Source: Desulfuromonas sp. TF (GTDB taxonomy: Bacteria; Desulfobacterota; Desulfuromonadia; Desulfuromonadales; ATBO01). From it: a stretch of DNA of 49,556 bases. Position numbers and translations under genes: made by a program. The notes beneath the pieces are model-generated. The model was not told the DNA's origin. It did no database searches and saw only the letters and a program-made list of their open reading frames with translations. The DNA lies in the NCBI RefSeq assembly GCF_000472285.1, contig NZ_KI421412.1, positions 1-49,556 on the forward strand, read 5' to 3'. This document shows positions 4,805 through 31,114 of this stretch, piece by piece (position 1 is the stretch's first letter; every line of letters starts with the position of its first letter).

Positions 4805-4821
4805 ATGCTCTCCTCGCGGAG

Positions 4822-4831
4822 TGAATATTCA
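4822..4831. promoter_or_regulatory. Candidate TetR operator, palindrome TGAATATTCA
   Basis: The perfect palindrome TGAATATTCA sits inside GAGTGAATATTCAGTC, 18 bp upstream of the TetR start. TGAATATTCA-centred sites are typical of many TetR/AcrR operators. The position fits autorepression of the efflux operon. Binding itself is inferred. Confidence 0.5.
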
Positions 4832-5020
4832 GTCCGGTTATTTAGAAGGGAGAATTCTCGCGATGTCAAGTGAGAATCATTTTACAAAAATGGCTAGACA
4901 AAAGGTTAAGTGACAAATTTAGTGAGGCTTTTATGATTTAAAGACTTTACCAGGGGGAATGAAATGCACTATTCTGAGGGTGCGATCTAAATAATAGACT
5001 GATATGCAGGAGGCTGGCGG

Positions 5021-5995: not shown

Positions 5996-5996
5996 C

Positions 5997-6662: not shown

Positions 6663-6893
6663 CGAAAATCTTTCGCTCTCACGGAAAGTTACAAGCCGAA
6701 AAATTTATTTTCCCACCGCTCCAGGCATTTCAACATGTTAGCCCCAAGGCGGGAATCCCCTCCCCCCAATTACGTGCAATCCCCCATAGACCGAGACCTT
6801 CCAACCGGTCATATTTAATATAAACCCACTAAGAATATAGGATTAGTAATCAATAATATCATGATTGAATGAAGGTATGGGAGCAGTTGCAGT

Positions 6894-8891
6894 ATGAGAT
6901 TGTATCTGGCCGTTCCGGCAATCCTTTTCTTCCTTGTCCATGTCTCGATCGTACACGCCGGGCTGACCGGCATCTCGGGAACTCCTGACCCGGCCTTCGA
7001 TGTGGTGGGGCTCTCCGGAGAGCCGGATGCCGTTGCGGTGAGCCTGGCCCATGGCTTTCCCCTCTGGTTCGAAGACAGCAACGGACTGAGGCTGCAGCTT
7101 TGCCTGGACCAGTCTGTGGAGACTGCTGTCGGTCCCGCCAGGCCCTGCCTGACGGAGGAGTTCTTCCCCGGCGCGCCGATATCGTTTCCCGGCAACTTCG
7201 GACCCGAGGCCTTCTGGTGGTCCGCCGTCGCTTTTGACACCTTCACCAGCACCGTCGGAGGCGGCGACGCATTGCTGGTGCTGGCTCAGGAGGCGGCGTT
7301 CGCCGACGACGTGACCGTCGACGGCGACCAGGTGGCCTTTGGCCGCATCCGCATCCGGATCAACGTTCCCGTCCCGGGCACCTACCGGGTGACCCATCCC
7401 TACGGCGAACGCGACTATGTCGTCAGCACCGTCTCCGCCGACCGCGAGATCAATCAGACCCAGGACATCGGCAACTTCCTCCAGCCGGGCCCCCCGCCCG
7501 CCGGCAATTTTCTCCTGGCTTTAGGAAACGGGCCCGATCCGGCAGACGTCCTGATCCCTGCAGGTTTCCCGGCAGAGAATGCCCCCCTGGTCTCTACAGA
7601 GGCAACGGGTATCGGCCCCTTCCTGGTGGCGGCCGACGCGCCCGGAGGCAATCCTCTCGCTTTCCTGCAGGCCCTTGACGGACGGCAATACCTTGCCAAC
7701 CCGGGGACGGAGCTGAATCCCATCACTTCTCCGGTTGCGGGCAGCGCATTCATCCCCGAGGGAGAGGCCGGATTCGCCAATTTCTTCCGTATCCGGCTCC
7801 TCGACCCTCCGGCCAATTTCTTCCTGAACGCCGCCGCCGGCTCCCAGGAGATCCTCATTGAGGATTTCCAACTGACGGGGAAGATTTTCAACGACGCGGC
7901 GAACGCGCCGCCGGTCGCGGCGAATGATTCCGCGGTTACCGCCATGAACGTTCCGGTCTCTATCGACGTTCTCGCCAACGATACCGACGTGATCGGTCCC
8001 GAAAATGCTCACGGCATCGATTCGCGGGCGCTCGGCCTTCCCGTCGGTCCGGCGGAAGATCCCCTGTCAGAAATCCTGCTCACGGAAACCCTGACGACCG
8101 AAAACGGGGGTACCGTACGCCGTACCACCGTCATTGCTACCGGAAATACCACCTTCACCTATACGCCTGCCGCAGGGTTCACCGGGACCGACACCTTCGA
8201 GTATGTGGTCCAGGATGCAGGAGGTCTGATTTCTGCTCCCGCGGTCGTCGAGGTGCTCGTCGAAAAACTCGAGATCTCCAGGGCCGACTATCGGCCGAGA
8301 ACGGGCAGATGGCACATCGGCGGCACCAGTTCGAATGTCGTTGAAAACACCCTTCAAGTGTTTGGCGGACCGAGAGCGCACCTGGCGCCGACGGAAGCCG
8401 GCGCATCCACCGGTCAACTCGATTTGAGATTGTCTGAAATCGCTCTTCCCTTTGCCCTGACGGTCTCTCCCCTGCCGCAGAGCGAGGTGGTTGAGATCAA
8501 TATCTTCCTGGAGGCCGAACAGGGGGTGGATCCTATCCTTTTCAACCTGTATTTCGACCTGTTCGATGGAGATTTCAGCGGCAGCTTTGATAGAACCCTG
8601 AGCATCTTCGAGTTCCAGCCGCGCCCGGCCCAAGGCATCAGCACCTTTACCGACGCGCTGGAGGCGATTCGAAATGGACGTACCTACGTCAAGGTCCACA
8701 CCGTCGCCTTCCCCGACGGCGAACTCCAGGGACAGATCACAAGACCCCTGCTCGGAAGGGCCGACGTGTCCGGGGACGGTCAGTGGGAGTTCAGGAGCAA
8801 GTCTCCCGTGGCCCCGGGCTTGATATCCAGCGTGAGCATACAATCCGGCAGCGGCGTCCAGACTCTGGATACCCCCCTGCGGATGAAATAA
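6894..8891 (+). CDS. Secreted repeat-domain protein with cadherin-like and CHRD-like domains; first gene of the oxidase operon
   Basis: 665 residues with a clear signal peptide (hydrophobic, ending VSIVHAG). Residues about 53-330 form a module defined by FPLWFEDSNGLRLQLC, EAFWWSA, FGRIRIRIN and GTYRVTHPYG; two copies of the same module are in the protein at 15302-17659. From about 339, PPVAANDSA and VLANDTD begin a cadherin-like/VCBS-type domain that ends near VVQDAGG. From about 460 a C-terminal module starts (ISRADYRPRTGRWHIGGTSS). It appears interrupted by a CHRD-like segment (TYVKVHTVAFPDGELQGQI) and resumes at GDGQWEFRS, ending TPLRMK. No enzyme motif is seen. A surface or matrix role in the oxidase assembly is inferred. 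GGGAG precedes the ATG. Confidence 0.9.
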   Translation: MRLYLAVPAILFFLVHVSIVHAGLTGISGTPDPAFDVVGLSGEPDAVAVSLAHGFPLWFEDSNGLRLQLCLDQSVETAVGPARPCLTEEFFPGAPISFPGNFGPEAFWWSAVAFDTFTSTVGGGDALLVLAQEAAFADDVTVDGDQVAFGRIRIRINVPVPGTYRVTHPYGERDYVVSTVSADREINQTQDIGNFLQPGPPPAGNFLLALGNGPDPADVLIPAGFPAENAPLVSTEATGIGPFLVAADAPGGNPLAFLQALDGRQYLANPGTELNPITSPVAGSAFIPEGEAGFANFFRIRLLDPPANFFLNAAAGSQEILIEDFQLTGKIFNDAANAPPVAANDSAVTAMNVPVSIDVLANDTDVIGPENAHGIDSRALGLPVGPAEDPLSEILLTETLTTENGGTVRRTTVIATGNTTFTYTPAAGFTGTDTFEYVVQDAGGLISAPAVVEVLVEKLEISRADYRPRTGRWHIGGTSSNVVENTLQVFGGPRAHLAPTEAGASTGQLDLRLSEIALPFALTVSPLPQSEVVEINIFLEAEQGVDPILFNLYFDLFDGDFSGSFDRTLSIFEFQPRPAQGISTFTDALEAIRNGRTYVKVHTVAFPDGELQGQITRPLLGRADVSGDGQWEFRSKSPVAPGLISSVSIQSGSGVQTLDTPLRMK

Positions 8892-8941
8892 AGCCTGGCT
8901 CCTTCAAGAAGGAAACAGGCGAATTCCAGGATGGAGTGAGC

Positions 8942-10570
8942 ATGAAAAGACGTGATTTCATAAAATTCACCTCAACGGGGCTGGCCGTCGTGGCGGTCGG
9001 CACCATGGCCGAGTGGCCGGCCTTCTGGGGCGCCGGGCAAGCCCATGCGGCGACCCTGCCCGGCCGTGGCGTGGTCCGGCTGGAAATGGCCGAGATCCAA
9101 GCCGAAATGGTCGACCTGCGCGCGGTGCCCATGTGGTCCTTCCGCCTGACCACGGGCGACCGCGACCGGGACGAGGCGCACATCGCCGCCAACCCCTACG
9201 ACTCCCCCTACATTCCACGCATCCCAGGCCTGACCCTTGTGGCCCTGGCGGGAGACCGGGTTCGACTGCGCATCGCCAATGACATCAACCGCGGAGGCGA
9301 CATCAAGCGGTTCGCCATCCCCGGCGTGCCCCTCACCGTCGACGGAGAGCAGGTCCAGCAGGTGAGCATCGAGCGGGGAGAAGACGACGTGGAGATCGAG
9401 TTCACCGCGCCGGCGCCCGGAACGTACGTCTATCTCGATCCGACCAACGCTCCCGTCAACCGAATGATGGGTCTGCACGGCGTGCTGGTGGTGCTCCCCC
9501 ACCCCGTGGGGGCCAACGGCTCTCCCTACGACGCTCCGACTCAGAACGTGCGGCAGCTCTTCGAAGACCTCGGTCGTGCGCCTCATTTCCCGGGCCATCC
9601 CTGGAACGGCGAGCGCAACGCCGTCTGGGTGACCAACACCATCGATCCCGACAAATGCGAGCAGGTGGCCGAGACCTCCGGGACCGTTTCGTCGCAGCAG
9701 TTCCTCAGCGGCATCCTCCCCCAGTACTTCACCCTCAACGGCAAGAGCGGCTTTTTCGCCGCCCAGCACGGCCAGTCGCTCTTCCCCACGCTCAACCCCG
9801 GCGGACTGCGTGATCAGAGGCACGACGTGGAACATCTCAACTGGGCCGCGATCGAGAAGGGCATTTTCGACACCCAGTCCAATGTCGCCATCCACGGCAA
9901 TGTCGGGCAGCCCGCCGTCATCCGCTGCGTCAACGCCGGCCTCATGTGGCATTCGCTGCATATCCACGGCAACCACCTCTACCCCCTCAGCCACGCCAAC
10001 TACCTGAACGGCTCGCGCATGATTTCAAACAATCTGACCATGCTCGATGCCTGGACCCTCGCCCCCGGCGACATCAAGGACATGCTGATCCCATTCATTC
10101 AGCCGCCGGACATTCCGCCAGCCAAGTGGCCGCCGCAGCAGGAGTTCTTCCCTCTGCTCTACCCGATGCACGACCACAACGAGATCTCCAATACGGCGGC
10201 GGGGGGAAACTATCCCCATGGGCTCTCCACCCACTGGGAGATCTCCGGCCCGATGGACCCTCATAATCTGGTGATTTTCGTGGATCGCGCTGACTTGAGG
10301 GTCAGAACAGGACGCTTTGAGCTCAAGGGACGCCTCTCCAGCGTCCCCCAGAGCGGACTCACTGTCGACATCCATGCCGGCGGCGCCGATGGCGAAATCC
10401 TTCTGGAAGGCTTGCCTGTGGACAGCCAGGGACGCTGGGAGTGCCGAGGAAGGGCCCTCAAGGCCTTCTCCGGAGGCGGCTTTGTCACCGCGGTCTATCA
10501 TCGACCCGACGAAAACGGCGATCAAAGTCACGCCCGCGTATCGCGTACCGTACCCCTGCGTGCACGGTAG
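8942..10570 (+). CDS. Multicopper oxidase half 1, Tat-exported, with C-terminal surface module
   Basis: 542 residues. The N-terminus MKRRDFIKFTSTGLAVVAV is a twin-arginine signal with likely cleavage after AHA. A first cupredoxin-like domain (about 45-190) has no evident copper ligands. A second (about 290-440) has WHSLHIHGNH (His337, His340, His342), like the third HxH motif of multicopper oxidases, and MHDHNE (His410, His412), like the fourth but without the type-1 copper cysteine. Residues about 446-542 are an extra module (RADLRVRTGRFELKG, SQGRWECRG, ending VPLRAR) also found at the C-terminus of the secreted proteins at 6894 and 15302. The other two HxH motifs and the cysteine are in the next gene 38 bp on, so this is probably one subunit of a heteromeric oxidase. 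Confidence 0.9.
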   Translation: MKRRDFIKFTSTGLAVVAVGTMAEWPAFWGAGQAHAATLPGRGVVRLEMAEIQAEMVDLRAVPMWSFRLTTGDRDRDEAHIAANPYDSPYIPRIPGLTLVALAGDRVRLRIANDINRGGDIKRFAIPGVPLTVDGEQVQQVSIERGEDDVEIEFTAPAPGTYVYLDPTNAPVNRMMGLHGVLVVLPHPVGANGSPYDAPTQNVRQLFEDLGRAPHFPGHPWNGERNAVWVTNTIDPDKCEQVAETSGTVSSQQFLSGILPQYFTLNGKSGFFAAQHGQSLFPTLNPGGLRDQRHDVEHLNWAAIEKGIFDTQSNVAIHGNVGQPAVIRCVNAGLMWHSLHIHGNHLYPLSHANYLNGSRMISNNLTMLDAWTLAPGDIKDMLIPFIQPPDIPPAKWPPQQEFFPLLYPMHDHNEISNTAAGGNYPHGLSTHWEISGPMDPHNLVIFVDRADLRVRTGRFELKGRLSSVPQSGLTVDIHAGGADGEILLEGLPVDSQGRWECRGRALKAFSGGGFVTAVYHRPDENGDQSHARVSRTVPLRAR

Positions 10571-10608
10571 GCACCCGGAAGTTTTCAAAAGACCAAGGAG
10601 GATGATTC

Positions 10609-11895
10609 ATGGCGAATGACATAGATTTCATCGGGCGCGACCTCGGCACCCCTTTCAACCCTGAAGATACCCTGGAACAGCGGGACTGGGACGATTGGAC
10701 CGTCCCTCCGACCGCCGGACAGCTAGCCGAAGACCTGCAGGGGCTGACCCCCATGAGTCGTGCGGTGCGCATGCTCGATCCCGCGCTGGTGGCGGGGCTG
10801 CCGCTCATCGACGCCGAAAACGAAAATGAGGCCCTGGATTTGGACCTCCCCACCCCCGACGAGGTGACGCCGGACCGCTCCTTCGAACGCCGGGGAATCC
10901 ACGACAGCATCGACCTTCCCCTCATTGTCCCCGGCCTCGGGCCCGTCAATATGTGGAGTTTCCGCGACAACCTCGACGGCACCTCCTCCTGGCCGGCCAA
11001 GACCATCCGCGTCAAGGAGGGCGAAGTCATCCACAGCCGCATGTCCAACCGGCGCGGTCCGCATACCATTCATCACCACGGCATCGAGCCGACGCCGATG
11101 AACGACGGCGTGGGGCATCTCACCATGGATATCGGCGGCGGCCTCCGCTACAAGTACCAGTGGCTGGCCGGAGAGTCGGGGACCTACTTCTACCACTGCC
11201 ACGTCAACACCGTGCTGCACTTCGAGATGGGGATGTACGGCATGCTCATCATCGATCCCGACGTCCCCGGGGCTCCCTTCACCGATGGCGGGCCGGGAGC
11301 CGTGATGATGCGTGACGAACCGGTCTCCTATGATGTCGAAGCCATCTGGGTCCCGGACGATATCGACCGACGCTGGCATATCCTCAACCAGCCCAACTAC
11401 CACGAGCGGGCCGGGATCGTGCGAGGTGAGTTCGTTTCGATAAACAATCCGGTAAACCCCCGGCTGCACGATTTCAACCCCGATGTCTTCGTCGTCTCGG
11501 GCGTGGCGGCACCCTTCGGACAGGACGGGGCCCTTCTCTCCGGCGCCCAGGCCACCGCGACCCTGGGGGACAAAGTGCTGGTCCGAGCCCTGAACGCCGC
11601 CTACTGCACCACCCGCTGGCGCTTCCCCGCCACCGTGCAGGGGACGGTGGTGGCGGTGGACGGCCGGACTCTGGGGCGCTCCCCCTTCGGCCGGTATTCG
11701 GAGCCATACTCGCTGGCCAGCATCAACCACCAGTTCGAGCTCACCACCGCTCAGCGATGGGACATTCTCATCGACACGGGGACCGCCTCCCGACTCGGCC
11801 AGCATGTGGTGGAAGTGGACTTCCTCCACTGGTACACGAAAAACCGACTATTTACGGTGCGCATGCCTATCCAGGTCAACTCGGCCGGGGCGTAA
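10609..11895 (+). CDS. Multicopper oxidase half 2, type-1 copper subunit without signal peptide
   Basis: 428 residues with a good ribosome site (AAGGAGGATGATTC before ATG). The N-terminus (MANDIDFIGRDLG) is hydrophilic and has no signal peptide. The first cupredoxin domain has HTIHHHGIEP (His155-157), the HxHG motif, and FYHCHVNTVLHFEMGMYG (His196, Cys197, His198, His204, Met209), an HCH type-1 copper motif placed where classical enzymes have the second, cysteine-free motif. A second cupredoxin-like domain (about 290-420) lacks HxH motifs. The HCHxNTVLHFEMGM pattern resembles MofA/MnxG-class enzymes as I recall them. It complements the two HxH motifs of the preceding protein. Export probably occurs by hitch-hiking with that Tat substrate. 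Substrate unknown. Confidence 0.9.
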   Translation: MANDIDFIGRDLGTPFNPEDTLEQRDWDDWTVPPTAGQLAEDLQGLTPMSRAVRMLDPALVAGLPLIDAENENEALDLDLPTPDEVTPDRSFERRGIHDSIDLPLIVPGLGPVNMWSFRDNLDGTSSWPAKTIRVKEGEVIHSRMSNRRGPHTIHHHGIEPTPMNDGVGHLTMDIGGGLRYKYQWLAGESGTYFYHCHVNTVLHFEMGMYGMLIIDPDVPGAPFTDGGPGAVMMRDEPVSYDVEAIWVPDDIDRRWHILNQPNYHERAGIVRGEFVSINNPVNPRLHDFNPDVFVVSGVAAPFGQDGALLSGAQATATLGDKVLVRALNAAYCTTRWRFPATVQGTVVAVDGRTLGRSPFGRYSEPYSLASINHQFELTTAQRWDILIDTGTASRLGQHVVEVDFLHWYTKNRLFTVRMPIQVNSAGA

Positions 11896-11924
11896 TTGGA
11901 AGTCTTTCCAGAGGATACTATTTG

Positions 11925-13919
11925 ATGAAAGCAGTTCTTCGAACCGTTCTTCCAGTTCTCCTGCTGTCGATGCTGGCGGCTCCGGCCCCGGCGGCCGACC
12001 CCGTGCCTCTGAGTCAGGTGCCGGTGCCCGAGCCGGTCAACCTGGGTCGCTTCGTCCAGGACCGCAATGCCGCCATCCGCCTGGGAAAGGCCCTGTTCTG
12101 GGATATGCAGGTGGGAAGTGACGGGCGGACCGCCTGCGCAAGCTGCCATTTCCATGCCGGTACCGACAACCGAACCCGCAACACCCTGCATGCCGGCATC
12201 AACGGGAGTTTCGATGAGGGCAGCGGCTCTAATGCCGACCTGACTTTGGTTGACTTTCCCTTTGTTGCCTTCGCCGATCCCGAAGACCGCTCATCGGCCA
12301 GAACCGTTCGTGACGACCGCGTCGGCGCCCAGGGGGTGAATAAGACCCGGTTTCTAGGGGTTGGTTCCGGACAGGCCGCAGAACCGGGGCGCATCGTTCG
12401 CGATCCCGATTTTACCAGGAATGGCCGCAACGTTCGCCAGGCCACCGGACGCAACGCACCGAGCGTCATCAACGCCGTCTTCAACTTCGCCAACTTCCTG
12501 GATGGGCGCGCCAACCATTTCTTCAATGGCGTGGATCCTTTCGGGCCCATGAATTCCGAGGCGAGGGTTTATATCAACACCGGCAATGGACTGGCGCTCC
12601 TCGACATGGTCGACCTTCGGCTGGATGCTCAGGGACAGGCGACCAATCCCTACGCCCTGAACAACGCCAGCCTTGCCTCTCAGGCCACGGGTCCGGTGCT
12701 CTCCGATGTCGAGATGTCCTGGATCGGGCGCACCTGGCCCGAAGTCGGTCGCAAGATGCTGAGCCTTCGCCCTCTGGCGGCCCAGGAGGTCCATCCCCAG
12801 GACAGCCGTCTGCAATTTCTGCGGCAAGGCAGCGGAAAAGGGCTGAGCACCACCTACGACGCCATGATTCGCGCCGCCTTCCGGACCGAGTTCTGGAACA
12901 GCGCCGCCACCGTGGACGGCTTCAGCCAGATGGAGAACAACTTCTCCCTCTTCTTCGGCCTCGCCCTTCAGCTCTATCAGGCGACCCTCATATCCGACCA
13001 GACCCCTTTCGACAGGTTCCTGCAGGGGGATACTCTGGCCATGAGCGAGAGCGCCCAGCGCGGCTGGAGCGTCTTTTCCGGCGGCGGCAAATGTCTCGAC
13101 TGCCATGTCGGGGCCGAACTCACGGGCGCTTCGGTCTCTTTTGCCCGCGCCGAAGGGGAGCCGGGACTCGTCGAACTGATGACGATGGCTGACGGTCTTC
13201 AGGCCAATTACGACATCGGCTTCTACAACATCGGTGTAACCCCCACAGAGGACGATCCCGGACGAGGCGGCACGGCCCCGTTTTCCATGGCCAACGGTGA
13301 ACCCATGCCCCTGTCCTTCACCGGGCAGCATTTCGCCGGAGAAGCCAACCTGGGCTTTACCCCCATCGCCCAGCCTGGGTGCATCAACGACTTCTTTGCC
13401 GATCCGCCGAATATCTGCCCGGATGCCGAAGACATCAATTCCCGACAGGCCGCCGATGGGGCTTTCAAGACCCCGGGCCTGCGCAACGTGGAGCTCACCG
13501 GCCCCTACATGCACAACGGCGGCATGCTCTCCCTGATGCAGGTGGTCAACTTCTATGCGAGAGGGGGGAATTTCCACGACGAAAATCTCGCCGATCTTGA
13601 TCCTGCCATCGCCGCCACGGGAACCCTGATTGGAAATGAAGAACGGAAGGCAGAGCTGGTGGATTTCCTGCTGGCGCTGACCGACGAAAGAGTCCGGTGG
13701 GAGAGGGCGCCTTTTGACCACCCCCAGCTCCTGATTCCGGACGGTCACGACAACCGGATCGAGGGGAACCCCAAGCGCACCCGGGTCCTGTCCGATCGGC
13801 TGCGGGAGATCCCCGCCGTCGGAGCCGGAGGACGCACCGCGGGCCAGGGGCCGCTCAAGCCCTTTCTGGCCGACAACCTGGAGGGAGCCGAACTGGAAAA
13901 CTTTCATTACAACCCTTGA
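11925..13919 (+). CDS. Di-heme cytochrome c, MauG/cytochrome-c-peroxidase superfamily, unusually long
   Basis: 664 residues with a Sec signal peptide (MKAVLRTVLPVLLLSMLAAP). Two heme c sites are visible: CASCH (Cys71, Cys74, His75) inside LGKALFWDMQVGSDG...CASCH, the family's N-terminal signature, and CLDCH (Cys390, Cys393, His394). The C-terminal signature TPGLRNVELTGPYMHNGG and FYARGGN is also typical. Ordinary bacterial cytochrome c peroxidases have roughly 320-350 residues, so this one has large insertions between and after the hemes. It begins 29 bp after the copper oxidase half 2. It may pass electrons to or from the copper enzyme, reduce peroxide, or oxidatively modify a partner as MauG does; sequence alone does not decide. 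Confidence 0.92.
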   Translation: MKAVLRTVLPVLLLSMLAAPAPAADPVPLSQVPVPEPVNLGRFVQDRNAAIRLGKALFWDMQVGSDGRTACASCHFHAGTDNRTRNTLHAGINGSFDEGSGSNADLTLVDFPFVAFADPEDRSSARTVRDDRVGAQGVNKTRFLGVGSGQAAEPGRIVRDPDFTRNGRNVRQATGRNAPSVINAVFNFANFLDGRANHFFNGVDPFGPMNSEARVYINTGNGLALLDMVDLRLDAQGQATNPYALNNASLASQATGPVLSDVEMSWIGRTWPEVGRKMLSLRPLAAQEVHPQDSRLQFLRQGSGKGLSTTYDAMIRAAFRTEFWNSAATVDGFSQMENNFSLFFGLALQLYQATLISDQTPFDRFLQGDTLAMSESAQRGWSVFSGGGKCLDCHVGAELTGASVSFARAEGEPGLVELMTMADGLQANYDIGFYNIGVTPTEDDPGRGGTAPFSMANGEPMPLSFTGQHFAGEANLGFTPIAQPGCINDFFADPPNICPDAEDINSRQAADGAFKTPGLRNVELTGPYMHNGGMLSLMQVVNFYARGGNFHDENLADLDPAIAATGTLIGNEERKAELVDFLLALTDERVRWERAPFDHPQLLIPDGHDNRIEGNPKRTRVLSDRLREIPAVGAGGRTAGQGPLKPFLADNLEGAELENFHYNP

Positions 13920-13979
13920 TAGATGAGACAGCTGTTGTTCGGAACACATATTCAGATTCACGGAAAGAGGGAGGACCTT

Positions 13980-15149
13980 ATGAAACGTTTTAAACTTCTT
14001 ATGCTGATCGGCCTCGTGACGGCCCTGGCGTTCGGGCTTCCGGGATGCAGTGGCGGTGGAGGAGGCAGTGACAGTGGTGCTGCGAATCCCGCCGGCAACA
14101 GCGACAGCGACGGCGACGGTATCCCGAACAGCGATGATACTCTTCCGAACGACGACACCCGTTTCGCCGCCTTCACCCGGATTCTGCTCGACACCCTGGA
14201 CGGCGTGTTCAGCACCGGCGTCGACATCAACGACAACGATCAGGTGGTCGGCTTGGCAGATGACGGAACCTCGATCAAGGGTGTGCGCTGGGCTGTCGAT
14301 GCGGACGCCGGGACGGCCGGTGCTCCCGCAGTGCTCGCCCCCATCGGTGAAAACGATTACAGCGCCGCCTACGGCAACAACGACACCGGGGTTGCTGTCG
14401 GCGAATCGGAGAAGGACGGATCCGACTTCGTGGCGGTCCTCTGGGGCGCCGGCGAAACGACACCCGCGGAGTTGAGCCTTTCCGGCGGCTTCGGGCCGAC
14501 GAGCGCAGCCTACGCCATCAATAATGAGGGTCAGATCGTCGGCGAGGCCCTGACCGACAGCGGCCTGGTCGCGGTGTTGTGGAACGCCGGCGGCGCCGAC
14601 CCGGTCTCCCTGGGCACCCTCGGCGGCGCCTTCAGCGCGGCCTACCATATCAGCGACAACGGACTGATCGTCGGAGAAGCCGAGCTGGAAAATGGCAACA
14701 CCTCCGCCGTGGTCTGGATGGTCGATGCGACCGGAGCGATCACCCATGGCCCCATCGCCCTGGGAACCGCCGGCGACGATTTCATCTCCAGCATCGCCTT
14801 CGGCGTGGACAACTTCGGCCGGGTGTCGGGCGAATCCGAAACAGCGGACGGTGAAATCCACGCCACCCTGTGGACCCTCGATCCCGCCACGCTCGTCCCC
14901 TCCGAAATCGCCGATCTCGGCGTCGCCGGAGCCGACAGCAGCGCCTACGCCGTCAACGAATCCGGCCGTATCGCCGGGTGGGACGGCCGCGACGGGGTCT
15001 CCCTGGCCAGCGTCTGGGATACCCGCAACACCTCCTTGGTTGACCTCATCCTGGAAGAGGGCAGCTTCAGCCAGGCGTACGGCCTGAACGAACAAAACCT
15101 GACCGTCGGTGTCTCTGCCGGTCAGGCCTTCGTAGCGGTGCCGCAGTAA
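13980..15149 (+). CDS. HAF-repeat outer-membrane lipoprotein with TSP3-like calcium motif
   Basis: 389 residues. The lipobox GLPGC follows a hydrophobic signal, so the mature protein starts at a lipidated cysteine followed by a Gly/Ser-rich linker. DSDGDGIPNSDDTLPND is a thrombospondin type-3-like calcium-binding segment. From about residue 75 onward six or seven repeats of about 45-50 residues follow, each with a core like AYAINNEGQIVGEA and a later LW or VW (AYGNNDTGVAVGES, AYHISDNGLIVGEA, AYAVNESGRIAGW). This is the HAF-type extracellular repeat, probably a beta-propeller-like fold. It is paralogous to the lipoprotein at 17674. GAGGGAGG precedes the ATG. Confidence 0.88.
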   Translation: MKRFKLLMLIGLVTALAFGLPGCSGGGGGSDSGAANPAGNSDSDGDGIPNSDDTLPNDDTRFAAFTRILLDTLDGVFSTGVDINDNDQVVGLADDGTSIKGVRWAVDADAGTAGAPAVLAPIGENDYSAAYGNNDTGVAVGESEKDGSDFVAVLWGAGETTPAELSLSGGFGPTSAAYAINNEGQIVGEALTDSGLVAVLWNAGGADPVSLGTLGGAFSAAYHISDNGLIVGEAELENGNTSAVVWMVDATGAITHGPIALGTAGDDFISSIAFGVDNFGRVSGESETADGEIHATLWTLDPATLVPSEIADLGVAGADSSAYAVNESGRIAGWDGRDGVSLASVWDTRNTSLVDLILEEGSFSQAYGLNEQNLTVGVSAGQAFVAVPQ

Positions 15150-15165
15150 TAACAGTTCAAAAAGG

Positions 15166-15188
15166 GTCGCGGATGCGTCATCCGCGAC
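15166..15188 (+). other. Perfect 10-bp stem-loop in the operon spacer
   Basis: GTCGCGGATG and CATCCGCGAC flank a 3-nt loop, with no T-run afterwards. It lies in the 152-bp spacer between the lipoprotein and the second large secreted protein. It is probably an RNA-stability or processing element rather than an intrinsic terminator. Confidence 0.6.
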
Positions 15189-15210
15189 TCAGTCAGTCGG
15201 GGGTCTCGGC

Positions 15211-15240
15211 CCCGCCCGGCGATGTCGATGCCGAGGCGGG
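15211..15240 (+). other. Second GC-rich stem-loop in the operon spacer
   Basis: CCCGCCCGGC pairs with GCCGAGGCGGG (one bulged A) around a 9-nt loop, 22 bp after the first hairpin and about 60 bp before the next start codon. No T-run follows. Confidence 0.5.
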
Positions 15241-15301
15241 CCGTCAAACCTCTCAATCCTTTTACAGGGAAAATGAAGGTTTCAGGAAAGGAGAAATACA
15301 G

Positions 15302-17659
15302 ATGGTGAAGAGATTTCTTTCAATTATGGCGGTACTGCTCTTTGTAGCACTCGCCGCCCCGTCGGCCTGGTCGGCTCTGGCAGACCTGGGTACCCCCATC
15401 GACCCCCACGGCTACCCGGTCTGGTATGAGGACGCCGCAGGTCTGCAACTGGAGCTTTGCGTCCCTCCGCCCGCCGGCAACGCCTCCCGGCCGGACCTGT
15501 GCATTGGTGATCCCCTTGAACTGGATGAAAACGGTGATCCGATCAATCCCCTGGTTCTCACCGGCGAGAGTTTCTGGTGGCTGGCGGAAACAGCTATCGA
15601 CGTCCCCGGCGGCAAGGCTCAGCTGACTCTGGCCGTCGAGGCCACCTTCGGTGGGGCCGAGGCCCCGATCGACGGGCAGCAGATCTCCTTCGGCCGCACC
15701 CGCATCCGCATCGACACCCCGGTCGCCGGCACCTATACGGTGAACCACCCCTACGGCACCCAGATATTCGAGGTGGCGGATCCAGAGGAAGGGATCAACT
15801 ACACCGCCGACATCGGCGCCGCAAACTTCCTTTTCCCGGCTCTCGGCTTCCAGGGGACCCTGGCGGCTTTCGGTCCCGATGAGGTTCCCTTCCTGACATG
15901 GCCCGATTATCAGAACAATCCGTCCCTGCAGGTGCGCGGCCCTGTCGATCCCGAGAACCCCGAGGAACCCGGACCTCTCCTGGAGCAGTATGTCGGCAAC
16001 CCCAACGTCGCCAGCACCGTAGTGGGCGGTACAAACGGCAACGTCTTCCGCGTTGACGGCCCCGCGGGTTCGAACCTCGGCGGAGTGGGGATCGATTTCG
16101 TGGAGACCGACCAGTTCTTCGTCATGGGCAAGGTGTACGACACCACGGTTCCCCTCGTCGCCCATGTCTTCCCCGGCGTCCCGGAACAGAACCTTTTCGC
16201 CGTCGGCCCCGTGAACCGCGTGGACCCTTTCAACCCCGCCTCGACCGCCGAAGTCACGGGTGAAGAATTCGACTATGCCTTCGGCTACCCGCTCTGGTAT
16301 CAGGAAAAACTGCCGGTGATTGACCCGGAGACGGGAGAGCAGGCCATCGATCCTTTGACCCAGCTTCCGCTGTTTGAAGGCGGCCTGCAGCTCACCCTCT
16401 GCACCCCGGGAGACGCCATGTGCATCTCCGACCCCATCGACCCCAATGATCCGAACCAGCTCGACTTCCGCACCGGCGGCGAGAGCTTCTGGTGGTCGGC
16501 CGACGCCGTCATCGACGATCTTCCGGCCGGCCGGGCCATCCTGGTGCTGGGCCTGGAAGGAACCTTCGGCGGCGACGAATCGATCACCGACGGCGGCCAG
16601 GTCTCCTTCGGCCGGGTGCGCGTCCGCGTCGACACGGACCGTGCAGGAACCTACCGGATCACCCACCCCTACGGCGTGTTGCTTTTCGAGGACGTGCCCG
16701 TGGACGACAATGGCATCAACTACACCGCCGACATCGGCATCTTCGATTCTTCCGATCCGGACCTCGGCTTTGCTGGAACCCTGTACAGCGACATCGGCCC
16801 GACCGTCCTCAAATGGACCACCTTCGTCGATCCTGCCACACTCGAACCGGAGGCCGTTTATCCTGAACCCCTTCTGGTCACTCCCAACGCGGCCAATCCC
16901 GAGTTGAACAACTATCACGTCGGCAACCCTGGGGTCGAACATGAAGTCACGGGCAGTCCCTTCGGCACCAACTTCTTCCGCGTCGAGTACCTGAATGACG
17001 GGGACTGGGAAGTCGTGGCCGAATCTGACCTCTTCGCGGTTTCGGGCAAGCTCTACGATCCGGCGACCTTCGAGTTCTCCATCAATCCCGATGCGCCGGT
17101 GGCGGTCAACGACGCGGCAACGCTGAGTATCGCCACAGCCACTTCGGCAACGGTTAACGTCACGGCAAACGATACCTTCGCCGAGGGGGCTCTCGTTGAC
17201 ATCACCGTGCTCCCCGCCGGCGAGACCTTCGGCCCAGAGAACGGCACGGCCGTCGCCAATGATGCTGCCGGCACCGTGACCTACACCCCCAGCGCAGCGT
17301 TTGCCGCCTCTGGCGGAGTCGACACCTTCGGCTACAACATCGTCGACAGCACCGGGCTGACCTCGAACAACGCCATCGTGACCATCACGGTTGTCCCGGT
17401 GGAAACCATCACCGTCAACCGGTCGCAGTTCCGGACCCGCAATCTCAGCATCAACCTGCGGGGGACCAGCAACGTTCCGGGAAGCACCCTGACCATCCAC
17501 GCCGGAACGGCTGAAGGAGCGCTCATCGGCACGGCCCTGGTGGACGACAGAGGTCGCTGGAGCTTCCGCGGCACGTCGACGACCAACATCACCGAGGTGA
17601 CTCTTGTTTCCGACTCTCCCGACGCGACGACGGTTACCCAACCGCTCGACGTGCGCTGA
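15302..17659 (+). CDS. Large secreted protein with two copies of the operon-specific module, cadherin-like domain and shared C-terminal module
   Basis: 785 residues with a signal peptide (MVKRFLSIMAVLLFVALAAP...AWSA). Two tandem modules occupy about 36-290 (YPVWYEDAAGLQLELC, ESFWWLAETA, FGRTRIRIDTP, GTYTVNHPYG, INYTADIG) and about 328-590 (YPLWYQEKLP, LQLTLC, ESFWWSADA, FGRVRVRVDTD, GTYRITHPYG, INYTADIG). The protein at 6894 has one copy. A cadherin-like domain (APVAVNDAA, VTANDT, TYTPSAAF) spans about 597-700. The C-terminal module (VNRSQFRTRNLSINLRGTSN, DDRGRWSFRG, ending QPLDVR) matches the tails of the proteins at 6894 and 8942. No catalytic motif is visible. Probably an extracellular structural partner of the oxidase. 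GGAAAGGAG precedes the ATG at 15302. Confidence 0.9.
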   Translation: MVKRFLSIMAVLLFVALAAPSAWSALADLGTPIDPHGYPVWYEDAAGLQLELCVPPPAGNASRPDLCIGDPLELDENGDPINPLVLTGESFWWLAETAIDVPGGKAQLTLAVEATFGGAEAPIDGQQISFGRTRIRIDTPVAGTYTVNHPYGTQIFEVADPEEGINYTADIGAANFLFPALGFQGTLAAFGPDEVPFLTWPDYQNNPSLQVRGPVDPENPEEPGPLLEQYVGNPNVASTVVGGTNGNVFRVDGPAGSNLGGVGIDFVETDQFFVMGKVYDTTVPLVAHVFPGVPEQNLFAVGPVNRVDPFNPASTAEVTGEEFDYAFGYPLWYQEKLPVIDPETGEQAIDPLTQLPLFEGGLQLTLCTPGDAMCISDPIDPNDPNQLDFRTGGESFWWSADAVIDDLPAGRAILVLGLEGTFGGDESITDGGQVSFGRVRVRVDTDRAGTYRITHPYGVLLFEDVPVDDNGINYTADIGIFDSSDPDLGFAGTLYSDIGPTVLKWTTFVDPATLEPEAVYPEPLLVTPNAANPELNNYHVGNPGVEHEVTGSPFGTNFFRVEYLNDGDWEVVAESDLFAVSGKLYDPATFEFSINPDAPVAVNDAATLSIATATSATVNVTANDTFAEGALVDITVLPAGETFGPENGTAVANDAAGTVTYTPSAAFAASGGVDTFGYNIVDSTGLTSNNAIVTITVVPVETITVNRSQFRTRNLSINLRGTSNVPGSTLTIHAGTAEGALIGTALVDDRGRWSFRGTSTTNITEVTLVSDSPDATTVTQPLDVR

Positions 17660-17673
17660 TCAAGGAGGTATTG

Positions 17674-18810
17674 ATGAACTCATTTATTAAGAACCTGAGC
17701 GTATTATTCCTTGCAACCCTGTTGCTCGCCGGTTGCGGAGGGGGAGGCAGCAGCTCCTCCGCACCTCCCGCAGGAGGCGGTGGTGGTGGCGTCGCAGGCG
17801 CCCTGGATGCCGGGGGAACCGGGGTAAGCACCGGTGAAGTGGCCGACAACGCGGGCAATCCCGTAACGGCCAACTTCACCAGCGCCCTCGACATCAACGA
17901 CCTTAACCAGGTCATCGGCTTCGCCGAAGTCACGGCGGGTGCCCCCTTCACCGCCGCCCTGTGGACCGTGGACGCCGCCGGCGACGCAGCGATCGCTCCC
18001 GCGGCCCTGAACCCCATCGACGGCAACACCTTCAGCGCGGCCTTCGCCATCGACGAGAACGGAAACGCCGTGGGGCAGTCCGCCAAGGGGACGCAACTCG
18101 TGGCCGTCATCTGGCCTGCCGGAGCGACTCCGGTTCAACTCCCCGCTCTCACCGCCGCCGGCAACAGCAAGGCTCTAGCCATCAGCGCCGACGGCACCCT
18201 GATCGTCGGTGAAGCACAGGATGCCAGCTCGCGCACCCGCGGAGTCCTCTGGATCGCGGATACCCCTGGGGTTTTCACCGCTGCTCCCACGGTTCTTCCC
18301 TTTGCGGCCTTTGCCAGCGGCTCGGACCTGAGTCCCTTTAGCTCCGCCAGCGGAGTCGCCCGCGTGGGCGATACGGAAATCCTGGTCGTCGGGGAAGCCG
18401 AAGCCGGAAACGGCGATCTCCACGCGGCCCTGTGGCGCTCGGTCAATGGAGGCACCACCTTTGCCGCCAGCAGCCTGGGTATTGACCATATCGCCTTTGC
18501 CGTCAACGGTGCCCGTCAGGTCGTCGGGGAGTCCGACGCCGGCCTCTCTCCCGTTTCCTGGACGATCAGCGACCTGGGAGTCGCCTCGGCCCCCGCTTCG
18601 CTGGCCACCGCCGGCAGCGCGGTGGCGATCAACGAAAACGGCCGCATCGCCGGCTGGAGCGGCGCCGCCAGCCTCGCCACGGTATGGGACGGCGCAACCC
18701 CGGTCACCCTGTCCGAGAATTCCGGTCAGGCCTATGGCCTCAACAATGACGCCCAGCCCCTGGTCGTCGGCCGCGAAGGCGCCCAGGGCTTCGTGAAACG
18801 AGTCAACTGA
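17674..18810 (+). CDS. HAF-repeat outer-membrane lipoprotein, paralogue of the one at 13980
   Basis: 378 residues. The lipobox LLAGC is followed by a Gly/Ser/Ala-rich linker. About six repeats follow with cores such as ALDINDLNQVIGFAE, AFAIDENGNAVGQS, ALAISADGTLIVGEA, AFAVNGARQVVGES and AVAINENGRIAGWS, then AYGLNNDAQPLVVG at the end. The same repeat architecture, without the calcium motif, is in the lipoprotein at 13980. AAGGAGGT at 17662-17669 fixes the ATG at 17674 rather than a TTG 3 bp earlier. It starts 14 bp after the preceding gene and is the last gene before the terminator. Confidence 0.88.
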   Translation: MNSFIKNLSVLFLATLLLAGCGGGGSSSSAPPAGGGGGGVAGALDAGGTGVSTGEVADNAGNPVTANFTSALDINDLNQVIGFAEVTAGAPFTAALWTVDAAGDAAIAPAALNPIDGNTFSAAFAIDENGNAVGQSAKGTQLVAVIWPAGATPVQLPALTAAGNSKALAISADGTLIVGEAQDASSRTRGVLWIADTPGVFTAAPTVLPFAAFASGSDLSPFSSASGVARVGDTEILVVGEAEAGNGDLHAALWRSVNGGTTFAASSLGIDHIAFAVNGARQVVGESDAGLSPVSWTISDLGVASAPASLATAGSAVAINENGRIAGWSGAASLATVWDGATPVTLSENSGQAYGLNNDAQPLVVGREGAQGFVKRVN

Positions 18811-18827
18811 GTTCCCCTTTTACAATA

Positions 18828-18852
18828 GGGAACAGGCCTTGCGCCTGTTCCC
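18828..18852 (+). repeat. 10-bp-stem hairpin after the operon
   Basis: GGGAACAGGC and GCCTGTTCCC pair around a CTTGC loop just after the last lipoprotein gene. No T-run follows. Together with the next hairpin it forms a double barrier or 3'-end stabiliser. Confidence 0.6.
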
Positions 18853-18864
18853 TCTCTGCAATCA

Positions 18865-18900
18865 AGCAGGAGAGGACGCCATGTCCTCTCCTGCTTTTTT
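18865..18900 (+). terminator. Strong intrinsic terminator of the oxidase operon
   Basis: A 13-bp perfect stem (AGCAGGAGAGGAC / GTCCTCTCCTGCT) with a 5-nt loop is followed by six T. It ends the run of genes starting at 6894. Confidence 0.92.
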
Positions 18901-19040
18901 AGTATCGGCCCACCGAATCACTATAAAGAGAGTCCCTTGCAACCTCCGGGCGATCTGATATGGATTGAGGGGGTATGCCTCTCGGTGCACGAAAGATGCT
19001 CGGATGCTTTCGGCAGCGCAATCACAAGGTAGATATCCCC

Positions 19041-21737
19041 ATGCAGGAAGCCCGCAAAAACCACTCGGAACTTCCGTCATCCCCCTGGTCCCTGTCCGCC
19101 GAGGAGATCGCCGCCCATTTCGGGGTGGAACCCGAACGGGGGTTGAGTCCGGATCAGGTGCGGCAGAGGCTTGACTCCTTCGGCTCCAACCGGCTGCGGC
19201 AGAAAAAAAGGGTCGGCGCCTGGAAGATTCTTGCCGAACAATTCAAGGACCTGATCATTATTCTGCTCGGGGTCGCGTCCATTGCAGCCTTTCTCTTCGG
19301 AGAATGGCTGGAGGGGGTCGCCGTGGCCGTGGCCCTGGTGATCAACGGTGCCATCGGATTCTTCACCGAACTGAAGGCGACCCGCTCGATGGAAGCGCTG
19401 CACAAACTGGGAGAGACCAGAGCCCGCGCCCGGAGAGACGGCCGGAGTGCCGAAATCTCCGCCGACGATCTCGTTCCCGGGGATATCATCCTGATCGACG
19501 CGGGCGACCTCGTCCCGGCCGACCTGCGCCTGCTGGAATCGAACAACCTCCAGGCGGATGAATCGGCCCTCACGGGAGAGTCCGTCCCGGCAAACAAAGG
19601 AACCGAGCCCCTGGAGGGCGACATCCCTCTGGCCGAGCGGTCGAACATGCTTTTCCGGGGGACGGCCGTCACCACCGGTTCCGGGTCCGGAATCGTCACC
19701 GCCACCGCCATGAAGACGGAGTTGGGGAATGTCGCCGATCTGACCCAGGGGGCCGAAGAGGAGGCGACCCCCCTGGAGCGGCGGCTGGAGCGCTTGGGGT
19801 ACCGTCTGATCGCGCTGACCTTCGTCATGGGCGTCATCGTCGCCGCGGCCGGGCTTATCGGAGGCAGGGACATGGCGCTGGTTCTCAAGACGGCCATCGC
19901 CATGGCCATCGCAGCCGTCCCGGAAGGACTGCCGGTGGTGGCGACCATCGCCCTGGCGCGCGGCATGTGGCGCATGGCTAGGCGCAACGCCTTGATGAAT
20001 CGCCTCTCCGCGGTGGAGACATTGGGGGCGACGACGATCATCTTCACGGACAAAACCGGCACCTTGACGGAGAATCGCATGACGGTGCGGCAGATCGCTC
20101 TGCCGGAGGGGAACATCGAATTGAAGGAAGAGGAATTCCTTCTGGACGGGGAAAAGGTCGATCCTTCGGAAAACGAGCACCTTCGGCAGGCGCTGGAGGT
20201 GGGGGTCCTCTGCAACAATGCGTCGCTGGATGAAGAGGGCGAGATCGGAGACCCGATGGAGACGGCCCTCCTGCGCGCGGGGCGGGCCGCCGGGATCGAA
20301 AGGCAGCGCCTGCTGAACGAAAATCCCGAGATCCGGGAAGAGGCGTTCAGCACCGAAACCAAGATGATGGCCACCGTCCACGAACATGAGGGTCAATTTC
20401 TCGTCGCCGTCAAAGGGGCGCCGGAGGCGGTTCTGAAGGTCTGCTCGCGGGTGGCCGCGGAGGGCGGAGAAAAGGAGTTCGGAGAAGAGGATCGAAGCGA
20501 ATGGCTGGAGCGCAACCGGGATCTGGCCGAAGGGGGACTGCGCCTCCTCGCCCTGGCCCGGAAGGAGGCGGCGAGTGAAGACGAAGAACCCTATCGGGAC
20601 CTTACCCTCCTCGGGTTTGCAGGTCTTCTCGACCCTCCCCGCAAGGACGTGCAGGGGGCCCTCGAAGAATGCGGCAAGGCGGGGATCCGGGTGATCATGG
20701 TCACCGGCGACCAGCCCGCTACCGCCCTGGGGATCGCCGCGGCCATCGCCCTGGAATCGGAGGAGTCCCAGACCCTGAGAGGGGAGAGCCTGCGGAAGCC
20801 GGAGGAGCTCTCCGCCGGGGAGCGGGAAAAGATACTGGGCGCCTCCATCTTCGCCCGGGTCACCCCCGAGCAGAAACTCTCCCTCATTGCCCTGCACCAG
20901 GAAAACGGAGAGATCGTCGCCATGACAGGAGACGGGGTGAATGACGCCCCGGCGTTGAAGAAAGCCGATATCGGTATAGCGATGGGACAACGGGGGACCC
21001 AAGTGGCCAAGGAAGCGGCCGACATGGTGCTGAAGGACGACCGATTCTCCACCATTGTCGCCGCCGTCCGCTACGGCCGGGCCATTTTCAACAACATCCG
21101 AAAATTTATCTTCTATCTCATCTCGGGAAACGTCAGCGAGGTGCTCATCATCACCCTGGCGACGGTGGCCGGCGCTCCCCTACCCCTCCTTCCCCTTCAG
21201 ATCCTCTACATCAATCTCATCGGCGACGTCTTTCCCGCACTGGCCCTGGGGATGGGAGAAGCGACCTCCGGCATCATGGAGCGCCCGCCGCGCGACCCGA
21301 AGGAGCCGGTCCTCACCCGATCTCACTGGCTGGGGATCGGAGGCTATTCGCTGGTCTTCGCCGCCGCCGTTCTGGGGGCTTTCGCCGTCGCCCTCTACCT
21401 CTTCGAGCTTTCCGCCGAGCGCGCGGTTACGGTCTCCTTCACCTCCCTCGTCCTCGCCCGGCTGTGGCACGTCTTCAACATGCGCGATCCCGGAACCGCC
21501 CTGCTGCGTAACGAAATCACCACGAACCCCTACGTCTGGGGCGCCCTCGCCCTTGGCCTCGCCATGCTGCTGGGGGCCGTCTACCTGCCGATCCTCGCCG
21601 GAGTGCTCGGGCTGACGCCCCCCGATGGTCGCGAATGGCTGCTGATCCTGACAGCGAGCCTCGTGCCTCTTGCGGTGGGACAGGCGGTGAAGTTCAGATC
21701 CGCGGTGAGCCCTACCCCTGTCCGGCCAGCCTCTTGA
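19041..21737 (+). CDS. P-type cation-transporting ATPase, calcium (P2A) type
   Basis: 898-residue ion pump. Order of motifs: N-terminal cation-ATPase domain (GLSPDQVRQRLDSFG), actuator loop TGES, VPEGLPVV in TM4, phosphorylation site DKTGTLT (Asp337), hinge TGDGVNDAPALKKADIGIA. Ion-site residues match SERCA-type pumps: glutamate in TM4 (PEGLP), Asn and Glu in TM5 (SGNVSEV), Asn and Asp in TM6 (NLIGDVFPALALGMG), which supports calcium, though Mn or another cation is possible. The start ATG at 19041 gives the usual short N-terminus; an in-frame ATG at 18975 would add 22 residues. Its 3' end overlaps the convergent pfkB gene by 26 bp. Confidence 0.94.
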   Translation: MQEARKNHSELPSSPWSLSAEEIAAHFGVEPERGLSPDQVRQRLDSFGSNRLRQKKRVGAWKILAEQFKDLIIILLGVASIAAFLFGEWLEGVAVAVALVINGAIGFFTELKATRSMEALHKLGETRARARRDGRSAEISADDLVPGDIILIDAGDLVPADLRLLESNNLQADESALTGESVPANKGTEPLEGDIPLAERSNMLFRGTAVTTGSGSGIVTATAMKTELGNVADLTQGAEEEATPLERRLERLGYRLIALTFVMGVIVAAAGLIGGRDMALVLKTAIAMAIAAVPEGLPVVATIALARGMWRMARRNALMNRLSAVETLGATTIIFTDKTGTLTENRMTVRQIALPEGNIELKEEEFLLDGEKVDPSENEHLRQALEVGVLCNNASLDEEGEIGDPMETALLRAGRAAGIERQRLLNENPEIREEAFSTETKMMATVHEHEGQFLVAVKGAPEAVLKVCSRVAAEGGEKEFGEEDRSEWLERNRDLAEGGLRLLALARKEAASEDEEPYRDLTLLGFAGLLDPPRKDVQGALEECGKAGIRVIMVTGDQPATALGIAAAIALESEESQTLRGESLRKPEELSAGEREKILGASIFARVTPEQKLSLIALHQENGEIVAMTGDGVNDAPALKKADIGIAMGQRGTQVAKEAADMVLKDDRFSTIVAAVRYGRAIFNNIRKFIFYLISGNVSEVLIITLATVAGAPLPLLPLQILYINLIGDVFPALALGMGEATSGIMERPPRDPKEPVLTRSHWLGIGGYSLVFAAAVLGAFAVALYLFELSAERAVTVSFTSLVLARLWHVFNMRDPGTALLRNEITTNPYVWGALALGLAMLLGAVYLPILAGVLGLTPPDGREWLLILTASLVPLAVGQAVKFRSAVSPTPVRPAS

Positions 21738-30980: not shown

Positions 30981-31114
30981 CACCAATCCCTTTACCCTCA
31001 GTTTAGATGATTCTCCTGGGTAAAGGGTAAGTCAGAGGCTGTGCCATGCACTTCTCCCAACCAGGGCGACTACGGCCAAAGGAAACTGATAGACTGTGGA
31101 ATGGGAGGTACACC

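Follow-up and report, generated by a model that had tools for sequence, protein, structure and literature searches.

A conserved envelope locus of Desulfuromonas sp. TF encodes a candidate heteromeric multicopper oxidase with complementary half-sites

A 49,556-nucleotide stretch of the Desulfuromonas sp. TF genome (contig NZ_KI421412.1, positions 1 to 49,556; hereafter the window) carries seven consecutive genes, G1 to G7, at the center of which lie two adjacent genes for multicopper oxidase subunits, G2 and G3. These subunits are paralogues with complementary ligand loss: the copper ligands that are invariant in one are missing from the other. We consider it highly probable, judging from their sequences, that G2 and G3 form an obligate heteromer with a shared trinuclear copper site. 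Read as a whole, the locus might encode a regulated, O2-dependent oxidase system of the cell envelope, in which this heteromeric copper enzyme is accompanied by a MauG-like di-heme protein (G4) and a surface scaffold; to this overall reading we give equal weight for and against. The features of the copper pair are as follows, Tat denoting twin-arginine translocation.

8942-10570, + strand: G2, two-domain multicopper subunit (Cu-oxidase_3) with a Tat-type signal
8948-8953, + strand: twin arginine of the G2 Tat motif (MKRRDF)
9950-9970, + strand: G2 copper motif HSLHIHG (H337, H340, H342)
10169-10177, + strand: G2 copper motif HDH (H410, H412; D411 at the usual type-1 Cys place)
10609-11895, + strand: G3, multicopper subunit (Cu-oxidase_3) without an evident signal peptide
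11062-11082, + strand: G3 copper motif HTIHHHG (H152, H155, H157)
11194-11235, + strand: G3 copper motif HCHVNTVLHFEMGM (H196, C197, H198, H204, M209)

The complementary loss is seen in a combined alignment of 20 G2 and 18 G3 sequences. H340 and H342 are present in all 20 G2, while the corresponding G3 columns hold Thr, Arg, Lys, Ser or Leu and Pro, Asp, Glu, Gly or Ser, respectively. H410 and H412 are likewise invariant in G2 (20/20), and 17 of the 18 G3 have gaps there. Conversely, H152, H155 and H157 occur in 18/18 G3, and no His stands at the H155 and H157 columns in the 20 G2. The second G3 motif is equally constant at H196, C197, H198 and H204 (18/18), with M209 retained in 16/18 and replaced by Leu in two. 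At the H155, H157, H196, H198 and C197 columns the commonest G2 residues are Ala, Pro, Leu, Pro and Asp; across these five cluster and type-1 Cys columns G2 has no Cys at all, and His only at H196, in 3/20 rows. The type-1 Cys, second His and Met of G3 are not shared with G2, and none of 46 G2 has an HCH in its first half. The D411 column of G2, at the type-1 Cys place, reads Asp in 13, Cys in five and Ser in two of the 20 sequences, so some relatives may hold a second type-1 copper.

Residues 59-336 of G2 and 110-334 of G3, which cover domain 1 and the beginning of domain 2, are homologous (hhalign 98.5%, E 3.6e-15). The G2 model superposes on the two-domain oxidases 3g5w (VIA Z 16.5, root-mean-square deviation 3.4, 238 residues, range 35-417) and 2zwn (Z 16.2), a match that is equaled by that to the first part of CotA-type enzymes (up to about residue 330) and that barely covers the region past residue 419. 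Foldseek alone on the same model gave long but poorly superposed matches, which were set aside for this second structural comparison. For G3, 2zwn and 3g5w are the best sequence matches. Pfam detects the first domain of G2 only; two cupredoxin domains per chain are indicated for G2 by the model fit and would extend to G3 through its homology to G2.

In two-domain oxidases, neighboring subunits form the trinuclear site together, one through its domain 1 and the other through its domain 2, and every subunit holds both halves of this inter-subunit site. Given this geometry, G3 would keep the domain-1 half and G2 the domain-2 half. We propose that G2 and G3 share a two-domain multicopper subunit as their ancestor and that each has since lost the half of the inter-subunit trinuclear site that the other retains, so that only a contact between G2 and G3 could bind three coppers. 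Like 3g5w, 2zwn and 7rab, which are among the top, tied, fold matches of G2, the pair has two cupredoxin domains per subunit; it departs from them in consisting of non-identical subunits with half a site each and one Tat signal for both. Since the presence of both halves in each subunit, as in the homotrimeric enzymes, does not apply to G2 and G3, we file the pair as a heteromeric variant.

In all 45 examined loci with a G3, a G2 gene directly precedes it on the same strand, separated from it by up to 345 bp or, in the open reading frame calls of L089 and L093 (L-numbers denote loci of relatives), overlapping it. Pair loci were collected partly via G2 matches and partly via G3 matches, and the adjacent pair ranges from Desulfobacterota to plasmids of Indioceanicola and Arthrobacter. 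Of 36 plasmid records with a G3 match, three were examined; the 22 listed among the remaining 33 come mostly from Haloarchaea, with one from Deinococcus. An earlier reading of the window from its letters alone (the sequence-only reading) had called the pair a split copper oxidase. That two genes are involved is borne out, but they are complementary paralogues and not one gene cut in two. A cut by frameshift or sequencing error was considered and rejected, because G2 and G3 are paralogous and are encoded by distinct genes in 44/45 loci. The open reading frame call of G3 in L089 overlaps G2, whereas the record's own annotation gives two separate genes; the sole case resembling a continuous chain, on an Arthrobacter plasmid (L093, 4538-6882), has the order G2-G3 and is broken by a frame change; genes for a module protein, an Nramp protein and a metal-dependent regulator lie close to it.

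The two subunits also differ in their export signals, which were called by RRxF/V in the first 120 residues and by hydropathy only, the latter as the mean over 12 charge-free residues within the first 50. RRxF/V is present in 42/46 G2 as called and in 42/43 with an intact start; of the four G2 without it, three are cut at the N-terminus by a contig end and one is an Arthrobacter protein. Hydropathy is at or below 0.82 in 44/45 G3 and above 0.85 in 44/46 G2. The sole G3 exception (L027) has a hydrophobic stretch at about residues 35-48, away from the very start. Motif and hydropathy thus give the same pattern of one twin-arginine subunit with a signal-less partner. Since a signal-less subunit stands beside a Tat subunit, the arrangement looks like Tat hitch-hiking, of which PaoABC is a natural example (PMC4273604). 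If the heteromer exists, co-export through the Tat system is likely: G2 and G3 would form their complex in the cytoplasm and be translocated as a unit by means of the G2 Tat signal, and copper may be loaded before export. The earlier claim that all or nearly all of the gene products are extracytoplasmic needs one correction, in that G3 lacks an evident signal peptide.

The gene that follows the pair encodes the di-heme protein.

11925-13919, + strand: G4, di-heme CCP/MauG-type protein of 664 amino acids (aa) with a Sec-like start
12135-12149, + strand: first heme site of G4, CASCH (C, C and H in 13/13 aligned sequences)
13092-13106, + strand: second heme site of G4, CLDCH (C, C and H in 13/13 aligned sequences)
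13554-13556, + strand: Tyr544 of G4, at the Met place of cytochrome c peroxidases and at MauG position 294

G4 is the long di-heme cytochrome that the sequence-only reading had recognized: it scores 76.4 bits against CCP_MauG (PF03150; gathering cut-off 25.6) and contains two CxxCH motifs. It stays below the cut-offs of the more specific models for MauG (TIGR03791; 93.5 against 443.85) and MbnH (TIGR04039; 103 against 362.85). Residue 544 is Tyr in 13/13 G4 sequences. Alignments pair it with a Met of 1iqc, which we take to be a heme ligand, and with a Tyr of 6e1c, presumably MbnH; residues 509-549 were matched to MauG 259-299, where Tyr544 is position 294 if the match is ungapped. MauG, MbnH and BthA share with G4 the two c-type hemes and the Tyr at the axial-ligand place. 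G4 differs from the solved chains matched in its length (664 aa against 308-477) and in a long insertion within the CCP_MauG match. Ligation is Met-His in peroxidases and Tyr-His in MauG (PMC6405878). The Tyr in place of the Met heme ligand, as in MauG, points to protein oxidation, and we incline somewhat toward MauG-type chemistry for G4. It would then be a peroxide-driven, Tyr-ligated di-heme oxidase of the MauG/MbnH/BthA type that most likely oxidizes a protein partner, with the module proteins of the operon, and G1 foremost, as first candidates.

Long relatives of G4 (91-93% query coverage) occur in seven plasmid records, from Burkholderiales, Nostoc and Indioceanicola. Five of the seven were examined and an oxidase lies alongside in two. 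In Paraburkholderia, G4 is located between two PKD repeat proteins that are followed by a single-chain multicopper oxidase, and on a Comamonadaceae plasmid it comes after an oxidase and a SCO protein. No oxidase was recognized beside G4 on the plasmids of L092, L094 and L095, whose neighbors were not run against Pfam. That the long di-heme protein can neighbor oxidases of different types lends a functional link some support. A RoxA-type rubber oxygenase, to which the length of G4 had led, was rejected by sequence comparison only: none of the 30 distinct sequences matched by the G4 profile is a chain named RoxA.

Conservation of the locus was surveyed in 136 genomes of the window's order, Desulfuromonadales. 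Searched with the G2 protein, 15 of them gave a match at E 1e-10 or below. With E thresholds of 1e-10 for the module shared by G1 and G6, 1e-60 for long G4 and 1e-30 for G3, these parts are present in 16, 16 and 15 genomes, respectively. Module, long G4 and G3 are all present, contiguous or not, in 13 genomes, which are spread over 10 families and therefore do not represent one clade; co-occurrence gives Fisher P values of 1e-13 to 7e-18, with kinship ignored. Any of the three parts is found in 18 genomes, and none in the other 118 at the thresholds used. The parts are split over different contigs in genomes G025 and G095, and the oxidase pair of genome G105 is of a diverged lipoprotein type.

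Gene order was compared over 59 loci, after same-contig duplicates (L036, L043, L045, L046, L071, L072 and L073) had been dropped; L132-L135, of other multicopper types, and L155-L157 stand outside this set. Of the places with E up to 1e-30 in the searches for such loci, all were retrieved but one, on contig C162 of genome G064, which is probably the missing end of the L047 G3. Module protein, G2, G3 and G4 are contiguous in 11/59 loci (the window, L026, L028, L035, L037, L038, L039, L040, L129, L130 and L131), the last three of which lie outside the order but within the class. Five families within the order and two more in the rest of the class thus show the arrangement. Most complete loci have the same gene order. 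L027 lacks G1, L041 ends with its contig after G2, and L034 has G1, G4 and HAF first, with the oxidase pair behind. Beyond the class, G2, G3 and G4 are consecutive in L029, L031, L032, L074, L080 and L084. The sequence-only reading had named a lack of joint conservation as one possible refutation; the genes are conserved together, and that refutation therefore fails.

The oxidase pair and the remaining genes also occur apart. L030, L042, L044 and L049 contain the pair without the rest, and their four genomes carry other parts elsewhere; L049 is a second, pair-only locus in the window's own genome, at about 502-505 kb. Conversely, L147 (9373-15675) has kinase, regulator, G1, G4, HAF and two module genes in a row without the oxidase pair, which lies about 2 Mb or more away in a genome with six module matches in total, and L149 consists of G1, G4 and HAF alone. 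Since the pair occurs without the rest and the rest without the pair, the locus is modular: it joins two modules, G1-G4-HAF and G2-G3, which frequently occur together but can be found apart. Of the 45 loci with G3, 22 include G4 and 20 include a module protein. L150-L152 lie on short contigs or at contig edges and are little informative, and L148, L153 and L154 show a diverged G4 alone. The suggestion of one machine is fair as a description of surface redox and placement proteins, but a strict single machine is not what these separable parts indicate. As a side observation, the G2 of L049 (contig C1, about 501.9-505.0 kb) has both a Tat motif and a lipobox-like VGGC, and the gene after this pair has a beta-helix region and one c-type heme.

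The remaining genes of the locus encode surface proteins.

6894-8891, + strand: G1, secreted repeat-module protein with Big_9 and CHRD
13980-15149, + strand: G5, HAF-repeat lipoprotein
15302-17659, + strand: G6, secreted, with two module copies, Big_9 and a C-terminal domain related to that of G2
17674-18810, + strand: G7, HAF-repeat lipoprotein

G1 and G6 share a module (45% identity over about 150 residues) that no Pfam family matches in either protein, and G6 holds two copies of it. The link to the copper pair through the C-terminal domain is seen in L026, L027 and L041, whose G2 match the G6 end at E 7e-6 to 7e-7; by eye, the C-terminal end of G1 also resembles those of G2 and G6. HAF repeats (TIGR02913) score 47.5 bits in G5 and 43.6 bits in G7, against a cut-off of 22.65, the two proteins have lipobox-like starts by eye, and each matches the other's relatives. 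Both paralogous pairs and both HAF lipoproteins had thus been correctly read from the sequence. The model of the G6 module is weak (predicted local distance difference test, pLDDT, 53; predicted template modeling score, pTM, 0.30) and its Foldseek matches are generic immunoglobulin-like and surface proteins; we therefore make no claim on the fold. It is feasible that G1, G6 and the HAF lipoproteins together constitute a surface scaffold.

Regarding the copper enzyme's substrate, we propose that the type-1 copper of G3 would take electrons from it and that the most likely small substrate would be a reduced metal, with Mn(II) or Fe(II) weakly favored over Cu(I). An Nramp gene is located within about 2.2 kb of G2 relatives on plasmids of Arthrobacter sp. 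FW305-BF8 and Paenarthrobacter aurescens TC1, and on the former a metal-dependent regulator and a module protein are nearby as well. In Skermanella, a multicopper oxidase, SCO and a module protein stand in a row. SCO-like matches near the pair were found in L044, L076, L125, L126 and L136; since the SCO query also holds a cytochrome c part, the weaker of these may not be SCO. The Nramp, SCO and RND neighbors point to metals generally and give no choice among manganese, iron and copper. Metal oxidation is supported by gene neighborhoods only, and manganese or iron as the substrate is the weakest step of the proposal, and a doubtful one.

Several points weigh against the proposed oxidase system. 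Bacteria of the host class are mainly anaerobic. Seven pair loci (L078, L083-L087 and L127) adjoin RND and membrane-fusion genes, which, read as heavy-metal efflux, fit copper handling equally with manganese or iron (the Pfam name of the one RND gene tested is ACR_tran), and the two Micrococcaceae Nramp cases are close kin and therefore count as one. Within the pair, the detected homology between G2 and G3 does not extend beyond the beginning of domain 2, 17/20 G2 likewise have His at the type-1 column of G3 H152, and stray HxH motifs occur at varying places in the second half of 11/45 G3. The G2 model is weak (mean pLDDT 58), and a G2-like gene in Paenarthrobacter (L155) has no G3 directly downstream. 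With respect to coupling, L147 and L149 have a G4 but no oxidase pair, and G4 is missing from 23 of the 45 pair loci, a contig end being the cause in some of them. Finally, the place of the inter-heme Trp in the 13 G4 sequences holds Trp in six, Leu in four and His, Val or Phe in one each, the window having Leu. BthA, which is Tyr-His ligated and lacks an inter-heme Trp, nevertheless forms bis-Fe(IV) (PMC6405878).

Alternatively, the locus could serve copper detoxification, with the pair as a heteromeric Cu(I) oxidase of the envelope in a role like that of CueO or PcoA and the rest as an envelope-stress package. Tat export is typical of copper oxidases, the RND and membrane-fusion genes of the seven loci can be read as Cus/Czc-like, and the SCO-like neighbors, of which the weaker are uncertain, fit this picture as well. 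The operon in the window itself, however, contains no RND, membrane-fusion or SCO gene. In addition, the RND gene at the window start matches the L084 query less well (8.5e-80) than do those of six of the seven loci (0 to 8e-266), and G3 reaches 53.5 bits against the cut-off of 478.95 of the CopA/PcoA model (TIGR01480), which G2 does not match. We regard copper detoxification as unlikely.

The pair could also reduce O2 to water while G4 removes peroxide and the scaffold merely anchors them, as a defense of an aerotolerant anaerobe. Multicopper and di-heme peroxidase families reduce O2 or H2O2, the mainly anaerobic hosts would suit such a role, and the heme sites and Glu263 of the EM motif, to which we assume a role in peroxidase chemistry, are kept in 13/13 G4. 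However, for a supposedly general need the distribution is patchy, any part being present in 18 of the 136 genomes, and module proteins together with an oxidase are also found in Arthrobacter and Skermanella, which we take to be aerobes. The Tyr at the axial place is, moreover, the pattern of MauG and BthA and not that of canonical peroxidases, an argument tempered by the fact that BthA also reduces peroxide well (PMC6405878). Altogether, we find such a defense improbable.

MbnH acts on a protein partner, and G1 and G4 stay together where the pair is missing (L147 and L149), both of which would suit maturation of the matrix through oxidation of aromatic residues of G1 and G6 by G4 and the copper pair and consequent cross-linking of these proteins into a surface layer. 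MauG, too, acts on a protein partner (PMC6405878), but with no target residue identified in G1 or G6 and no confident fold prediction for the module (pLDDT 53), we hold cross-linking to be the least probable of these explanations.

Among known multicopper oxidases, the motif order is shared with MnxG from the Bacillus MnxEFG system, in which motifs C and D precede A and B (PMC3618234). This corresponds to G2 followed by G3, a comparison of motif order only and taken from that publication. MnxG is one chain of 1217 aa with all motifs, unlike the two chains of G2 and G3, and sits in an MnxGE3F3 complex (PMC5622069). MofA, MoxA and CotA have the reverse order, A, B, C, D in MofA (PMC3618234). OmpB of Geobacter and MofA of Leptothrix are multicopper proteins of the cell surface, near whose genes a cytochrome and in some cases a copper chaperone are encoded (PMC5566968); they are large single chains with A and B N-terminal and C and D C-terminal, which is not the case for G2 and G3. 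L132 and L133, class members of about 800 aa with the order A, B, C, D, are matched by the G3 profile over only about 100 residues. Three tandem multicopper oxidase genes occur in Sideroxydans lithotrophicus ES-1 (PMC5566968), where several such genes adjoin, as here. The iodide oxidase IoxA was purified with a second protein, IoxC, and SCO1/SenC genes belong to its cluster, but IoxA alone carries all four copper regions, unlike G2 or G3 (PMC9415286).

L134, a class relative that is ES-1-like by tandem layout only, has motifs A and B (with the type-1 Cys) on one gene, C and D on the next and none on the third (4602-8961). It shares with the pair the separation of A/B and C/D on different genes and differs in having A/B first and, by eye, Sec-like starts on all three genes, without the Tat hitch-hiking pattern. 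It is possible that these tandem genes encode another heteromeric oxidase. Tandem multicopper genes were also seen in L135 (5813-9500), and eight further genomes have paired multicopper matches with spacing similar to that in L134 and L135. On plasmid pTC1 of Paenarthrobacter aurescens (L155, 4093-7945), a G2-like Tat protein lies near mntH, and the record contains a second match.

In a limited set of literature, covered by titles and abstract starts, neither this operon nor a multicopper oxidase with complementary half-sites is described. The pair might represent a distinct class of multicopper oxidases, obligately heteromeric through complementary loss, exported on one Tat signal and coupled to a MauG-like finisher of surface proteins, a suggestion that we make tentatively and lean slightly against. 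Should G2 and G3 form one enzyme, it would provide a clear natural case of an O2-reducing copper site divided between paralogues that are each useless alone, a textbook route from homo- to hetero-oligomer. It would also be a Tat cargo that is exported folded and with its metal, and in which partner binding is tested by design. With regard to bacteria that cycle metals, the analysis points out a conserved locus for a surface oxidase, with its own two-component system and di-heme enzyme.

The regulatory features that flank the seven genes are the following.

5021-5995, + strand: histidine kinase (HisKA_3/HATPase_c) of the adjoining two-component system, by Pfam/NCBIfam
5997-6662, + strand: LuxR-type response regulator, by Pfam/NCBIfam
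18864-18896, + strand: intrinsic terminator with a 15-pair stem and a T-run, by terminator scan

Kinase, regulator and G1 to G7 all lie on the + strand (5021-18810), in agreement with the sequence-only reading of seven same-strand genes between a two-component system and a strong terminator. The two-component system ends 231 bp before G1, the successive gaps from G1 through G7 are 50, 38, 29, 60, 152 and 14 bp, and purine-rich stretches upstream of G1 to G7 are candidate ribosome sites. Kinase and regulator are directly upstream on the same strand in 11/59 loci (the window, L026, L027, L028, L034, L035, L037, L038, L040, L041 and L147); for L035, the regulator alone is noted upstream, without the kinase. 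A scan of 5000-20500 found no sigma-70-type promoter on the + strand, and the other four + strand terminator-like sites in this region have stems of 5 or 6 pairs; overall, the terminator scan found 9 sites against 12.6 expected from shuffles, i.e. no excess. The 152-bp gap before G6 may leave room for a second promoter and contains an inverted repeat (15166-15188) with a 10-pair stem and no + strand T-run, which is possibly a processing or regulatory site. Elsewhere in the window, the RND-family transporter gene occupies 1-2975 on the minus strand and runs off the window end, a TetR-like regulator was recognized by eye at 4238-4804, and a glucose/sorbosone dehydrogenase-type protein (GSDH) is encoded at 31046-32236.

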